A stretch of DNA of 64,000 nt from Armatimonadota bacterium (lineage in GTDB: Bacteria; Armatimonadota; Fimbriimonadia; Fimbriimonadales; Fimbriimonadaceae). Position 1 is the first letter of the stretch; each line of letters begins with the position of its first letter. Positions 210 to 8,086 of this stretch are shown here, piece after piece. Location of the stretch: the NCBI GenBank assembly GCA_018268255.1, contig JAFDWX010000004.1:1-64000 (forward strand). Direction: 5' to 3'. The translations under genes were made by a program, and so were the position numbers. The notes under the pieces are model-generated. The model did no database searches, was not told the DNA's origin, and saw nothing but the letters and a program-made list of their open reading frames with translations.

Positions 210-1124
210 TTATTCCATCTCAAGTTCTTGCAGCATGCGCGGGTTTTGGCGCCAATCTTCTCGAACCTTCACGTGCAGTTCCAAACGAACATGCTTGTCC
301 ATCATGGGTTCCAGTTCCTTGCGGACTGTGGTTCCGATGAGCTTGAGCATCGAACCGCCTTTCCCAATCAAAATTGCCTTTTGGCCTTCTTTCTCCACGA
401 TGATCGACATCGCGATCCGAACCTTCTCATCGTCTTCTTCCCACAGGTCGACCAAGGTTGCCACGGCGTGCGGAACCTCTTGTTTGGTCTGGAGAATCGC
501 TTGTTCTCTGACTAGTTCCGCAGCCAGTTGCCGCAACGACTGGTCGGTGACCATCTCTTCTGGGTAGAGTGGTTCGCCCTCCGGCAGACTCTGGACAATC
601 ATCTCGACCAACTCGTCCACGTTCTGTTTTTTTGTCAAGCACGTGAGCATATAGCGCTCTGTTTTGAACAGCTTGCAGTACTCCTCCACGTTTTCGATGA
701 CGTACTCGGCTTTCAGCATGTCCATCTTGTTGAGACACAGCAGCACGCCGTTGAAATCGGGATTCTCGTCAGCGTAGGGGTATCTCCAAGCCCGTTCCAA
801 CAAACCAGCGATCTCTTTGTCATCCGTGTCGGGTGGCTTGTGGGCATCCACCACGATGAGAACCAGATCAACATCACCCAACGCGGTTCTGGCCGCGTCA
901 TTCATCTTTTTCCCGAGATGTGTGTGTGCTTCGTGAATCCCCGGAGTGTCCACCAACACCAGCTGATGTTCGGACTCGGTGCGGATACCGCGGATTCTGT
1001 GCCGAGTGGTCTGACGACGGGGGCTAACAATGGTCACTTTCTGACCCACGACCAGATTTACGAGCGTGCTTTTGCCCACATTGGGCTTACCGATCAGCGC
1101 CACTGCGCCTGAGCGAAATCCCAT
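210..1124 (-). CDS. era: GTPase Era
   Basis: Ribosome-assembly GTPase that binds the 3' end of 16S rRNA during 30S maturation. The 304-residue length is normal. G1 (GKPNVGKST) lies at residues 12-20, the Era-type switch ([11 protein letters not shown]) at 36-46, G3 (DTPG) at 59-62 and G4 (NKMD) in the middle. The C-terminal third holds the KH RNA-binding domain, with the GKGG loop visible in the segment [12 protein letters not shown]. The start ATG lies 1 nt past the stop of the upstream 1115-residue gene, so the two are probably co-translated. This is one of the surest calls in the window. Confidence 0.97.
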
Positions 1125-1125
1125 C

Positions 1126-4100
1126 CTACACTCGTTTCCTGAACACGACGTTCATTGATAGATCGTTAAACGGCTCGCCGGAGTCAGCCTCAATCACCGC
1201 CGTAGACACCCCGTTCCCCCCATTGGGGCGCTGTCGTCGTCCACGTTTGCGGCGACGGCCACTGGTCTTGCTCCCGGACGGCTTGTCCAGTTCGGCGAGA
1301 CCCTCCGGTAGCTCCGTATCCAACTGGCCGGGCTTGAAGAGCAGACCGTCTGCCAAGTCATCTGCAGAACCCTCTTCTACCCACTCATCCAGTTTCATGA
1401 TGGGGATATCGAAATTGATCGCATCCAAATGCAGCGTGTTTTCGGGCCGAGTGGGAAGTTCTTCGATCATTTGGAGCTCATCGAGTGGCTTGGACAAGAT
1501 CGATTCCAACTCGCTTTGCGGCCCCACCAAGTAGGTGTACGTGGCCCCATCCAAGGCTTGGAACCTCAGATGCGTTGCATCACGGGCCGCCCACTCGCCG
1601 TGAGAAAGGCTGTAGGCAGCCCATTTGTTCGGGAGCGTGATCATTCGCCCACCCGGGCTCGTGCAGTGGATCGAAAGGAACGGGACACGAACGTGGACCA
1701 CGTCGTCGTTGTAATTCCATGCCTGGGCGCCGGCCATGGCACCCAAAGCGCGAAAGAGTGCCGGGGTGACAACAGGTTCACCTAGGAACACAGAAGTCCA
1801 TTCGTGCTCGTTGGTCTGCTCGTCGCGGAATTCTCGGACCACGTAGCTTGGGAGGCCAGTCTGGCTGTACTCTCCCAGGACCAGAGAATCCTCAGGAATC
1901 GCAAAATAGCTTGGCTCCAATTGACTCCCCGTGGCCAGGACTCGTTCGGGTAGCGCTTCGCCGAGCGGATGCCGACGATTCAGCAAGGTGGTGCCAGACT
2001 TGCACGCGAACGGTTGCGGCTTAAGGGCAATGCCGGTGACCTCGCGTACCCTTTCCAAGGAATCGCGTCCGGAATCGAACAACCCAGCCGCGTAGAGCCA
2101 GAAAAGGACCTTTCCCTTGCACTGCAGGCGGGACTTGATGGCGCTCCGAACCTCGGGCCGAATATCCCAAGCATTTACAAACACGTGCAGCTTGCTTTCG
2201 GGGAAATTCTCACGGTGAGCCAGATCGCTCAGCAAGTAGAACCCAGCGCTGAGACCACTGCGCAAGACGGCTTCGCGAACGTTTTGGACCAGTAGAGAGA
2301 AAGCCTCTTGATCGGCCAAATACGCGAGCGACCGCTCATCGATAAAGACTGCAACATCGGGGTCGGCTTGTGGGGTGCCACTTCTGCGGAACAAGCTTTC
2401 GAGACACTGTTTTCCGCGTTGCCAAATTCCCGGAGAACTCAGCCACCCGTTGCCCCAGAGGTCCATCCAACAAACGCCGCTTCCGTGGGCCATGGCTGAA
2501 CCTAGGCCGCGCCATTGGACGTTTTCCAGAGCCTGAGGAGTCCGAATGACCGGATTGAAATCGTCCGGTTCTGGAGTTCCGCTCATCGGCGTCTTGAAAT
2601 CCTCTTCGCTGACGTACATTTTGTTGTTCAAAGCGAAGCTGTCGATTGGACACGGGAACGAGCAGCTTCCGCCTGGCTCTCGATTGCGATAGCTCGGGGG
2701 ACCTGCGATGATATCGAGTTCGGGAGTGCGAAGAAGTTTGCCGAGGGACAAATGGCCGCTGGCAGCGTGATTCCATTCGAACGTGTAGCCGTAGGATACG
2801 CCCACCAGGTAGCGGCCCTCGCTCGCCTTTTTGGCGACGTAGGCAAGGCTTTGAATTCTCTCGCAGGCCATGTCGCTTAGGAATAGGTGATAGTCCACCC
2901 AGCGACGAGCTTTCCTTCCGTTTCGGATAAAGTCTTCGGTTCGTTCAGTCTCAAATGGAGGCACCAAGAGGGTTTCGAATTTGGCGCGACCATCGAACCA
3001 ACTTGCCCTGAGCGCAACGATATCGTTGCGATAGCGAACTCGAAGCCAGTCGCGGAATTTCTTTGTCGCAGCCTCCGAGTTGTCATAACCTGAACCGGCG
3101 GCGTAGAACCACTCTCCACGCTCGAGGTGCACTCCCAAAACCGCGTTGTGAGTATCGACTACTCGAAGTTTTGCGACAAATTTCTCCAGGCATTGCGCTG
3201 CGACATCCCAGAAGTCGTCATCTGAGAAACTCGGTTCTGCGATGGTGTTGTCGGCCATCACGTACCGCGCGGCAGGGAACTTTTGTTCCCAGTTGGCAGG
3301 AGCGGTGAACACCACACGGAACATCACATGGGCGCTCGGATCAATTTCCCGAGTTTTGTTGAGCAGGTAGCCCGCGAATGCTACGGAATCGCTGACAGAT
3401 CCCGTTTCGACTTCGAGTTCGACATAGTGGATGAACGTGTGAACACCGTTCTCCGATGCCATCCTGATCTGCTCAAAGACGTTTTCGGCTCGTCGTTCGT
3501 CCAGCGCGTTCCCGAAGAAAAAGAGCGGTGGGATGAGCTTCCTATCAAACGCAATGAGCGGCACGCCATCTCGAACGACCACTTGGGGAGCATCCGACGG
3601 GACCGCAATAGTTTCGCGGATCGGTTTGGTGGGCGCGGGGGGAAGAGGAATTTGACTTTGAACGACAGGCTGGTCTGCAACTCGGGTGTCATGCTTGCGG
3701 CGATCCCGTCGGCCCGATTTGACATCTTCGGTCGACATGGGCTTGATCGCTTCCGCTGCCGTGATCGGGCTCTCAGACTCATCGTCTCGACGCCTCTTGC
3801 CCTTTCTCGGTGCCAAATTCTTGGAGTCCGAAGAGCTAGATTCCGACTGTTTGGATGACGAACGCCATTTCAAAACCACCAATTCCTCATTGCCGATGGA
3901 GATGGTCTGTGGCTGTTGATCCCCGAGAATTGGTTGCGCTTTTTCAGCCTTAGGAGCTCTCTGATCCTTTCTTGAACGCGGAGCATTGCTGCGCGCCGTC
4001 TGCTCCGGCCCAGTGGTGCTCGCCTCACTGGACCGTGGTCGAAATCTCACCGTCACGCGCTCATCTTCGTCAACGGGCAGACTCAATTCCAACTGAGCTT

Positions 4101-4473
4101 GGGAAACAGTGGACGCTGGTTTGGCTGGTTTCCGAGATGTCCGCCTGTTCCTTGCAGGAGACGCTGGGGGTGCCTCGACTACCTCCGGAACAGCAGGCTC
4201 GTTGGCACTTTGTGGTTTTCGCCGGGTCCGACCCTGCTTGGGCGTGGGCGCGGTTTCGGGGGTAACAGGAGCTTGTGCCACTTCAGGCTCCTTGGCAACG
4301 GGAACTTTGGTGGTTCTCGTTCGGCGGGGCGCCGGAGTCGTCTCGATTTTAGGGGCAGCTTCAGGCGCTTTTTCTTCCGTTCCCTTGGGAGCTGCTTTGC
4401 GAGTTCGTGTCTTGGGTTCTGGATTAGGTGTCGGGCTTAATTCTTCCGACGGAATGAGTTTCTTTCTAGCCAT
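1126..4473 (-). CDS. Large glycosidase-like protein with basic low-complexity tails
   Basis: A 1115-residue protein with no signal peptide. About the first 280 residues are low-complexity, rich in Lys, Arg, Pro, Ala and Glu, with repeated basic clusters (RTRKAAPK, RRTRTTK, RTRRKP, RKGKRRRDD). A long folded region follows that resembles the beta/alpha-barrel of GH42-type glycosidases or beta-galactosidases: the segment GVHLERGEWF and, later, YVSEEDF carry Glu residues placed like an acid/base and a nucleophile. The C terminus has another Arg/Lys-rich patch (RRRKRGRRQR). I chose ATG 4473 (MARKKLIP) because it overlaps the upstream stop by 8 nt; an in-frame start at 4560 would add 29 residues inside the phosphatase gene. 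The function is not established. A sugar-acting enzyme retained in the cytoplasm and bound to nucleic acid or ribosomes is only a guess from the tails and the neighbour era. Confidence 0.75.
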   Translation of the reverse strand: MARKKLIPSEELSPTPNPEPKTRTRKAAPKGTEEKAPEAAPKIETTPAPRRTRTTKVPVAKEPEVAQAPVTPETAPTPKQGRTRRKPQSANEPAVPEVVEAPPASPARNRRTSRKPAKPASTVSQAQLELSLPVDEDERVTVRFRPRSSEASTTGPEQTARSNAPRSRKDQRAPKAEKAQPILGDQQPQTISIGNEELVVLKWRSSSKQSESSSSDSKNLAPRKGKRRRDDESESPITAAEAIKPMSTEDVKSGRRDRRKHDTRVADQPVVQSQIPLPPAPTKPIRETIAVPSDAPQVVVRDGVPLIAFDRKLIPPLFFFGNALDERRAENVFEQIRMASENGVHTFIHYVELEVETGSVSDSVAFAGYLLNKTREIDPSAHVMFRVVFTAPANWEQKFPAARYVMADNTIAEPSFSDDDFWDVAAQCLEKFVAKLRVVDTHNAVLGVHLERGEWFYAAGSGYDNSEAATKKFRDWLRVRYRNDIVALRASWFDGRAKFETLLVPPFETERTEDFIRNGRKARRWVDYHLFLSDMACERIQSLAYVAKKASEGRYLVGVSYGYTFEWNHAASGHLSLGKLLRTPELDIIAGPPSYRNREPGGSCSFPCPIDSFALNNKMYVSEEDFKTPMSGTPEPDDFNPVIRTPQALENVQWRGLGSAMAHGSGVCWMDLWGNGWLSSPGIWQRGKQCLESLFRRSGTPQADPDVAVFIDERSLAYLADQEAFSLLVQNVREAVLRSGLSAGFYLLSDLAHRENFPESKLHVFVNAWDIRPEVRSAIKSRLQCKGKVLFWLYAAGLFDSGRDSLERVREVTGIALKPQPFACKSGTTLLNRRHPLGEALPERVLATGSQLEPSYFAIPEDSLVLGEYSQTGLPSYVVREFRDEQTNEHEWTSVFLGEPVVTPALFRALGAMAGAQAWNYNDDVVHVRVPFLSIHCTSPGGRMITLPNKWAAYSLSHGEWAARDATHLRFQALDGATYTYLVGPQSELESILSKPLDELQMIEELPTRPENTLHLDAINFDIPIMKLDEWVEEGSADDLADGLLFKPGQLDTELPEGLAELDKPSGSKTSGRRRKRGRRQRPNGGNGVSTAVIEADSGEPFNDLSMNVVFRKRV

Positions 4474-5155
4474 GGTGCGTTGAAAATTCGTTTTCGAACC
4501 ACTCCTGGAGATCCTCCGGGGTTTCGAATAGGTAGGTAGGGCTTTCAGCGGCGAGTGCATCTTTCTCGCCCGCGCCGTAAGTCACAGCCACGGGCACGCA
4601 GCCTGCCGCTTTGGCGCATTGCATGTCAAAAATCGAATCGCCGACGAACATCGTTTCGGCGGGGGAGACTCCCAGCTGTCTGCACGCTTCCACTGCGGGG
4701 TCTGGAGCAGGCTTGCCCCGGTCAGTATCTCCAGCGCAGACAGTCACGAGGTCCTTCAGCGATGGGAATTGGGACCAGAAAATTTCAATCTCTTGGCGGC
4801 ACTTGCTTGTAACCAGACCGACTCCCCAGCCACGTTCGGCAAGTGAAAGCACCGCATGTACGGCAGGGCAGAAGCTCGTCACGCGGTCCTTGTGCTCAAC
4901 AAACCGAGCCCGAGCGAAATCGCACCGCTCTGCCAAAGTTGTGTTTTCACAAGCATCCAAGCCCATCATATTCATTTGCTCATCGAGCGGTCGGCCGATG
5001 AGGCTCCTAACGAATTGGTCGGTTGGCCTCGTGCCAGTGAATCGCTCGAACGCATCTTGCAGACCGGGGATGATCATTGCCACGGAATCCACAAGCGTTC
5101 CATCGATGTCGAAAAGCACGGCGCGGATACGCACTGTGCAGTTCGAAATCGGCAT
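4466..5155 (-). CDS. HAD-superfamily phosphatase (PpaX/phosphoglycolate phosphatase-like)
   Basis: A 229-residue haloacid dehalogenase-type hydrolase. The nucleophile motif DIDGT is at residues 16-20, the Lys motif is in GKPAPDP, and the acidic motif IV (VGDSIFD) follows. A helical C1 cap sits between the first two motifs, as in phosphoglycolate phosphatase and pyrophosphatase PpaX. The substrate cannot be read from sequence. ATG 5155 is preferred, with GAGG close upstream; ATG 5164 in frame is an alternative. The stop overlaps the next gene's ATG by 8 nt, so it is the first gene of a four-gene unit ending with the HerA-like ATPase. Confidence 0.85.
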   Translation of the reverse strand: MPISNCTVRIRAVLFDIDGTLVDSVAMIIPGLQDAFERFTGTRPTDQFVRSLIGRPLDEQMNMMGLDACENTTLAERCDFARARFVEHKDRVTSFCPAVHAVLSLAERGWGVGLVTSKCRQEIEIFWSQFPSLKDLVTVCAGDTDRGKPAPDPAVEACRQLGVSPAETMFVGDSIFDMQCAKAAGCVPVAVTYGAGEKDALAAESPTYLFETPEDLQEWFENEFSTHHG

Positions 5156-5164
5156 GTGCCTCAT

Positions 5165-5493
5165 TATGACTGAGATGCTTAGGCGGAATGGGATTTTGTC
5201 TCGACAGCCTGCAAAAATGCCCACATAAATCACGGAACTTGAATATTTGATATAACGTTATTGTATGCTGACGTAAATCGAAACTCAGATTCAAGCGGTC
5301 TTCACTTAAAGTCGTGCTGCATCTGAATTTTCAATTACGGTAAAGTACCAGGAAAAAATAAATAATTATGGGTGGTTACTGTCAAGTTGCGGTAATGTTA
5401 ACCAATGTTTAAATTCGGGGATCTTTTTGCAATTGAAATTCCATCCAGGATCTAGTCACTCAGTCGTCGGATGAAGTCCTTCTTGACGAAGGG
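5165..5493. other. AT-rich intergenic region
   Basis: About 330 bases without a convincing gene, clearly richer in A and T than the flanks. It should hold the promoter of the minus-strand phosphatase unit, but I see no good -35/-10 pair. A perfect inverted repeat TGGTTA / TAACCA lies at 5373-5378 and 5399-5404 with a 20-nt loop; it could be an operator or chance. Confidence 0.4.
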
Positions 5494-7431: not shown

Positions 7432-7950
7432 TTAGTGATGGGACTTCTGGGCGAGCATCTTCTGCACGGAGGGCGGAATCAGCACGTTATCAATAATGTG
7501 GATGGTGCCGTTTGTTGTCGAAACGTCTGTAGTAATGACTTGTGTCTTGCCGTTGAGGAATACCTTGCCGTGCTTCACTTTGATCTTCACGGACTCACCT
7601 TCCACCGTCTTCGCAGAGTTGAGCTTCACGACATCCGCAGCCATTACGTTGCCAGCAACTACATGATAGGTCAGCACCTTCTTGAGAGCCTCTTTGTTGG
7701 AGCCCAATGCGTCGAGCACGCTCTTAGGGACTTTGTTGAAGGCAGCGTCTGTCGGAGCGAATACGGTAAACGGTCCGTCACTCTTCAGGACTTCGACAAG
7801 TCCAGCCTTGGTCAGAAGGGAAGCGAGGGTTTTGAATTTTCCTGCGGATACGGCGGTATCCACGATGTCCTTTGTCGGTGCTGCCGCGATGCTGGAGAGT
7901 GCGGTCATGGCCACTAGAGAGAGAAGTGAGATGGTTTTGGTAAGTTTCAT
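7432..7950 (-). CDS. Secreted fasciclin-domain protein
   Basis: A 172-residue protein made of a signal peptide ([20 protein letters not shown], cleavage near the following AAA) and a single fasciclin (FAS1) domain. The FAS1 hallmarks are visible: [11 protein letters not shown] in the H1 region, LTYHVV in the middle, and the closing [11 protein letters not shown] segment. Such proteins are exported or surface-attached and mediate adhesion or matrix interactions; the partner is unknown. The ATG at 7950 has a clear AAGGA 7 nt upstream, which rules out the 17-codon in-frame extension. It appears monocistronic. Confidence 0.92.
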
Positions 7951-8086
7951 AGCGTTTTCCTTGAAGGTAGTGTGCCCGGGCTTTCTCTCAGAACTACACA
8001 TGAAACCATCACGCCAGTTTCAAAATCATCAGTGAAAAATGATGATTGCCCAACTCTCGGCAATATTGTAGACTCGTGCTAACGCT

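Follow-up and report, generated by a model that had tools for sequence, protein, structure and literature searches.

Glycoside hydrolases of the GH42 and GH164 types are known as nutritional enzymes, and GH42-type enzymes are commonly intracellular and act on short oligosaccharides. An asparagine immediately preceding the acid/base glutamate is usual, not universal, in clan GH-A. In the clan GH-A enzyme Bs164 (GH164), the catalytic glutamates are located on strands 4 and 7, and Asn-159 precedes Glu-160. In this work we analysed a window of 64,000 nucleotides from an Armatimonadota bacterium of the family Fimbriimonadaceae (assembly GCA_018268255.1, contig JAFDWX010000004.1, positions 1 to 64,000 of the forward strand), in which a gene placed next to era encodes a protein with a core of this architecture and long tails. 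The explanation that we favour, with a probability of about 0.5, is that this protein is a cytosolic GH-A-type retaining beta-glycosidase, probably trimeric, that is tethered to nucleic acid by disordered Arg-rich tails.

Results

The gene layout given in the initial annotation was confirmed: the end of the HAD gene (4466) overlaps the start of the glycosidase-like gene by 8 nt, and a single nucleotide separates the stop codon of the latter from the start of the downstream era gene at 1124 (Table 1). The protein starts with a low-complexity N-tail of ~289 residues, continues with a glycosidase core of three domains and ends in a basic C-tail. No hydrophobic segment was found near the start of the N-tail, in agreement with the lack of a signal peptide noticed before. 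Promoter and terminator scans gave scores no better than those of shuffled sequences. The HAD-IA phosphatase is of the PpaX/phosphoglycolate phosphatase type, below the equivalog cut-offs, and its substrate might provide a hint at the pathway of the glycosidase. Elsewhere in the window, positions 7432-8001 encode a small protein with a signal-like N-terminus and, as judged by eye alone, a fasciclin-like domain.

Table 1. Features of the glycosidase-like gene, its neighbours and the tails of its orthologs
Feature	Position	Strand	Basis
era	210..1124	(-)	NCBIfam PRK00089.1 and TIGR00436 above cut-off (equivalog, 338 bits)
Glycosidase-like gene	4473-1126	(-)	ATG at 4473, stop 1128-1126, 1115 aa
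HAD-IA phosphatase gene	4466..5233	(-)	Pfam HAD_2, NCBIfam HAD-IA
Disordered N-tail, residues 1-289	3607..4473	(-)	Composition; ortholog constraint; some orthologs carry AT-hooks here
Domain A, (beta/alpha)8 barrel, ~residues 297-700	2374..3585	(-)	AlphaFold2 model, GH42/GH164 matches; boundaries approximate
Glu454, candidate acid/base, just past strand 4 (HLERGEWF)	3112..3114	(-)	Conserved in tailed orthologs and secreted paralogs
Glu623, putative nucleophile within strand 7 (SEEDFKT)	2605..2607	(-)	No substitution in any compared row, tailed or secreted
Domain B, GH42-type trimerisation domain, ~residues 701-920	1714..2373	(-)	AlphaFold2 model; boundary by Bs164 analogy
Domain C, C-terminal beta-sandwich, ~residues 921-1005	1459..1713	(-)	Model secondary structure; boundary by Bs164 analogy
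Arg-rich patch RRRKRGRRQR, residues 1073-1082	1228..1257	(-)	K/R count in orthologs vs paralogs
C-terminal FRKR motif, residues 1111-1114	1132..1143	(-)	Conserved in Fimbriimonadia; six-fold Arg codons switch
AT-hook repeats in ortholog N-tails	L004:5326-5950, L006:2019-2565, L012:2016-2556, L025:1527-2260, L038

The core was modelled with AlphaFold2 from an alignment of 42 tailed orthologs (alignment A2), and the resulting model (pLDDT 89.5, pTM 0.92) bore out the barrel with conserved glutamates proposed in the initial annotation, as part of a confident GH42-type fold. According to Foldseek and VIA-align, the best PDB neighbours across all three domains were trimeric GH42 beta-galactosidases and the GH164 enzyme Bs164; alignment with 3tts extended over 600 residues (Z 22.2, 3.8 A), with VIA-align covering model residues 20-699. 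In the full-length structural matches the order of barrel, trimerisation domain and beta-sandwich was that of GH42.

By sequence, the relationship was distant. The Pfam GH42 profile gave 13.7-14.5 bits for the window protein against a cut-off of 21, so that the GH42-like assignment made earlier holds for the fold, while the sequence stays below the family threshold. A search of the PDB with the single protein yielded zero matches, and profile searches of the PDB reached E values of 0.03 or worse with alignment A1 and of 0.002, to GH42, with alignment A2; no match to Bs164 was obtained by profile search of the PDB. The window protein matched no NCBIfam model, and no anti-phage defence protein in PADLOC-DB at E<=1. 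On the other hand, 30 of the 42 tailed orthologs matched the Pfam GH42 profile at E<=1 (best 9e-10), which makes a distant relationship to GH42 likely.

In the model, the two glutamates appear to sit at the catalytic positions of clan GH-A on strands 4 and 7: a strand at model residues 160-166 is followed by Glu169 (Glu454 of the protein), and the strand at 334-340 contains Glu338 (Glu623). The residue preceding the acid/base is Gly453 in the window protein; in orthologs this position is occupied by Gly, Arg, Glu or Asn. Since this asparagine is not conserved, substrate handling must differ from that of Bs164 and, the window protein being also below the Pfam GH42 cut-off, we describe it as GH42/GH164-like and file it in neither family.

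The loss of this asparagine and the replacement of Glu454 by Asp in one tailed ortholog (L018) could be taken as signs of a pseudo-enzyme using the barrel as a scaffold for the tails, as suggested in the initial annotation. However, L018 is the only tailed ortholog with this change, and Glu623 is invariant. Tailed proteins and secreted paralogs have 33 positions in common, both glutamates among them, and Tyr561, His574, Arg598 and others are likewise kept in the secreted paralogs (L086-L105). In close ortholog pairs, core dN/dS values were 0.01-0.05, with 0.15 in one more distant pair, and those of era were 0.007-0.06 in the same kind of close pairs; purifying selection on the core thus resembles that on era and is of housekeeping level. 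Given the conservation of both glutamates, in secreted paralogs as well, and the low dN/dS of the core, a pseudo-enzyme is hardly credible, and the protein is likely a catalytically competent, unsecreted GH-A-type glycosidase.

The low-complexity N-tail of the window protein (~275-289 residues) is rich in K, R, P, A and E, with R/K clusters such as LAPRKGKRRRDD; it contains 20% K+R, 13% P, 11% A and 13% D+E, and its net charge is +18. In close ortholog pairs dN/dS values were 0.10-0.36 for the N-tail and about 0-0.11 for the C-tail (0.16 in the more distant pair mentioned above), which identifies the tails as real, constrained coding sequence. A misplaced start codon was rejected, as the tails are coding and under constraint in many orthologs. 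The N-tail evolves faster, yet the short motifs LAPR and P.WR are retained in many members. A C-terminal basic patch, defined as at least 7 K/R in 12 residues, was present in 26 of 26 members of the Fimbriimonadia set and 17 of 20 other tailed orthologs (43 of 46 tailed members overall), and in none of 20 paralogs. In a 464 kb portion of this genome, which holds 372 genes of at least 150 aa, no other long stretch of low hydrophobicity was a comparable basic tail, and the window protein was alone among 460 ORFs in reaching 8 K/R in 12 residues. The tails pointed out in the initial annotation are thus conserved, and they set this clade apart from its secreted paralogs. A tail common to RNase E/G was also considered and rejected, since the RNase E/G of the same genome lacks such a C-tail.

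In Fimbriimonadia only one residue follows the C-terminal FRKR, of which a few variants occur (FRNR, FRRK, FRRR). Its Arg codons alternate between CGN and AGR among orthologs, so that a constraint at the protein level is likelier, and a mere by-product of the era ribosome-binding site is disfavoured. The corresponding DNA pattern had a single match in the genome, and other genes there do not end in FRKR.

Regarding the ligand of the tails, AT-hook cores (RGRP between basic residues) were found in the N-tails of five orthologs (L004, L006, L012, L025 and L038), at 3-4 per N-tail against ~0.002 expected by shuffling; the window protein contains none. The N-tails of L016 and L017 carry PAKKA-like repeats in modest excess over the shuffled expectation. 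Pfam domains were absent from the orthologs bearing AT-hook or PAKKA sequences. These motifs favour nucleic acid as the ligand. On the other hand, N-tails are net neutral or acidic in L013, L014, L018, L021 and L026; the N-tail is therefore not uniformly a polycation, and polyphosphate or protein partners stay among the possible ligands. An active cytosolic glycosidase might accordingly use its tails to bind polyphosphate, the inner membrane face or partners, or to form condensates through short linear motifs. It is consistent with this alternative that N-tails are polyampholytes, often near neutral, and that the strictly kept features are short motifs (the RRR patch, the FRKR end, LAPR.. and P.WR), of which the FRKR end would be one short linear motif. 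Precedents are the histone H1-like protein AlgP, which acts on polyphosphate granules (PMC9239181), and the disordered noncatalytic region of RNase E, which recruits partners. AT-hooks and RGG-like stretches are, however, classical nucleic-acid motifs, and we consider a different ligand somewhat unlikely, whereas a role of the tails as a nucleic-acid tether is, on balance, the probable prediction.

The tailed gene is near-universal and essentially single-copy in the order, and has orthologs in other Armatimonadota classes. Among relatives from the order, 21 of 21 genomes contained an ortholog, with one matched locus per genome; the exceptions were two genomes, each with two matched pieces that correspond to different regions of the protein. 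One in-frame stop each was observed in the matched open frame in G002, G010 and G012 (loci L030, L032); these may be sequencing errors, artefacts of the alignment at the tail or genuine stops. In the phylum sample, 111 of 151 genomes had some match, and matches split into two tiers. The first tier (34-42% identity, a single copy in each of about 45 genomes) comprised proteins that, in the 20 loci analysed, had long K/R/P/A/E-rich N-tails and C-tails mostly RRRRRGGRGRGRR-like. The second tier (mostly 25-33% identity, often several per genome) was secreted-looking in most cases and lacked tails. The secreted paralogs L086-L105, with about 26-30% identity to the window protein, contain the same catalytic glutamates, and most of them carry a hydrophobic signal-like sequence; none has the C-terminal basic patch. 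These GH42-like paralogs reach up to ten matches per genome and show several N-terminal extensions; one that was checked against Pfam GH42 was below the cut-off.

In a tree of 63 rows, built by a quick method without bootstrap, a branch with SH-aLRT support of 99% separates the tailed proteins from the paralogs. L026, recovered with the Fimbriimonadia set, groups with the first tier and lacks FRKR; era was not present in the ~0.7 kb of contig remaining after it. A secreted domain lying away from era, named in the initial annotation as an observation that would speak against its reading, was found for the paralogs only, the orthologs being tailed and devoid of signal sequence.

The era gene was adjacent in 24 of 24 Fimbriimonadia loci long enough to judge, and in additional family members. 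It was absent from the flanks of the 20 first-tier orthologs from other Armatimonadota classes, which have the same tails. The linkage noted in the initial annotation is thus strict in Fimbriimonadia and absent elsewhere, which indicates a lineage-specific operon and leaves era linkage as weak evidence of function. A HAD gene was located upstream in many Fimbriimonadia and, outside the order, in family f8 (L056-L063). In three genomes of family f28 (L071, L075, L077) the gene 3′ of the ortholog is mtaB, a tRNA methylthiotransferase confirmed by an NCBIfam profile in one of the three; it is a second translation-related neighbour besides era. A factor for translation or ribosome assembly working with Era would fit the strict adjacency in Fimbriimonadia and the position of mtaB in family f28. 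Nevertheless, era is not near the 20 orthologs of other classes, and neighbours outside Fimbriimonadia vary by family, which makes such a factor very unlikely.

Neither a sugar transporter gene nor any other glycan gene is found repeatedly beside the orthologs. This observation bears on an ordinary cytosolic catabolism of imported oligosaccharides, in which the tails would be a peculiarity of the lineage and serve no targeting. The commonly intracellular action of GH42-type enzymes on short oligosaccharides is in line with this possibility; nevertheless, the near-universal and essentially single-copy presence in the order, the era-like constraint, the lack of recurring glycan genes and the clade-wide, constrained tails render it improbable.

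Discussion

For the nucleic-acid-tethered glycosidase that we favour, the three-domain architecture of GH42/GH164 type would support retaining catalysis, in which Glu454 would act as acid/base and Glu623 would be the nucleophile. The predicted homotrimer would display three pairs of disordered Arg-rich tails, and these multivalent tails may bind nucleic acid, either nucleoid DNA or RNA. Such binding would fix the site at which the enzyme acts. With little confidence, we speculate that the substrate is a sugar on DNA, RNA or a nucleic-acid-bound protein, so that the enzyme would carry out de-glycosylation at the bacterial nucleoid or ribosome.

Much of the phylum keeps an unsecreted, essentially single-copy gene of GH42/GH164 type with tails resembling those of nucleic-acid-binding proteins and an era-like constraint, and this set of features points therefore to an internal glycan process. 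In the open-access literature we found no description of such a process in these bacteria, nor of this protein. The combination of housekeeping-level constraint, lack of secretion and clade-wide basic tails makes the protein worth an experiment, and the proposal is directly testable because the core can be expressed without the tails and cultured Armatimonadota exist.

Among known systems, the GH42 beta-galactosidases (3tts, 5e9a, 1kwg) share the three-domain architecture of the window protein (Z 20.9-22.2 over 576-600 residues) and the glutamates on strands 4 and 7, at 12-15% identity; the window protein differs from them in the lack of the conserved Asn before the acid/base and in its long disordered tails. 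The GH164 beta-mannosidase Bs164 has the same three domains and the clan GH-A Glu pair (Z 20.3, about 10-11% identity), but it has a signal peptide and no basic tails. Op5Man5, a GH5 enzyme with a GH42-type trimer, is alike in its barrel, its trimerisation domain and the glutamates on strands 4 and 7, and differs in having no C-terminal domain; basic tails are not mentioned in the accessible part of its description. RNase E and similar enzymes, whose core is unrelated, offer a parallel only in the way of working, as a catalytic core carries a disordered basic tail for localisation or recruitment.
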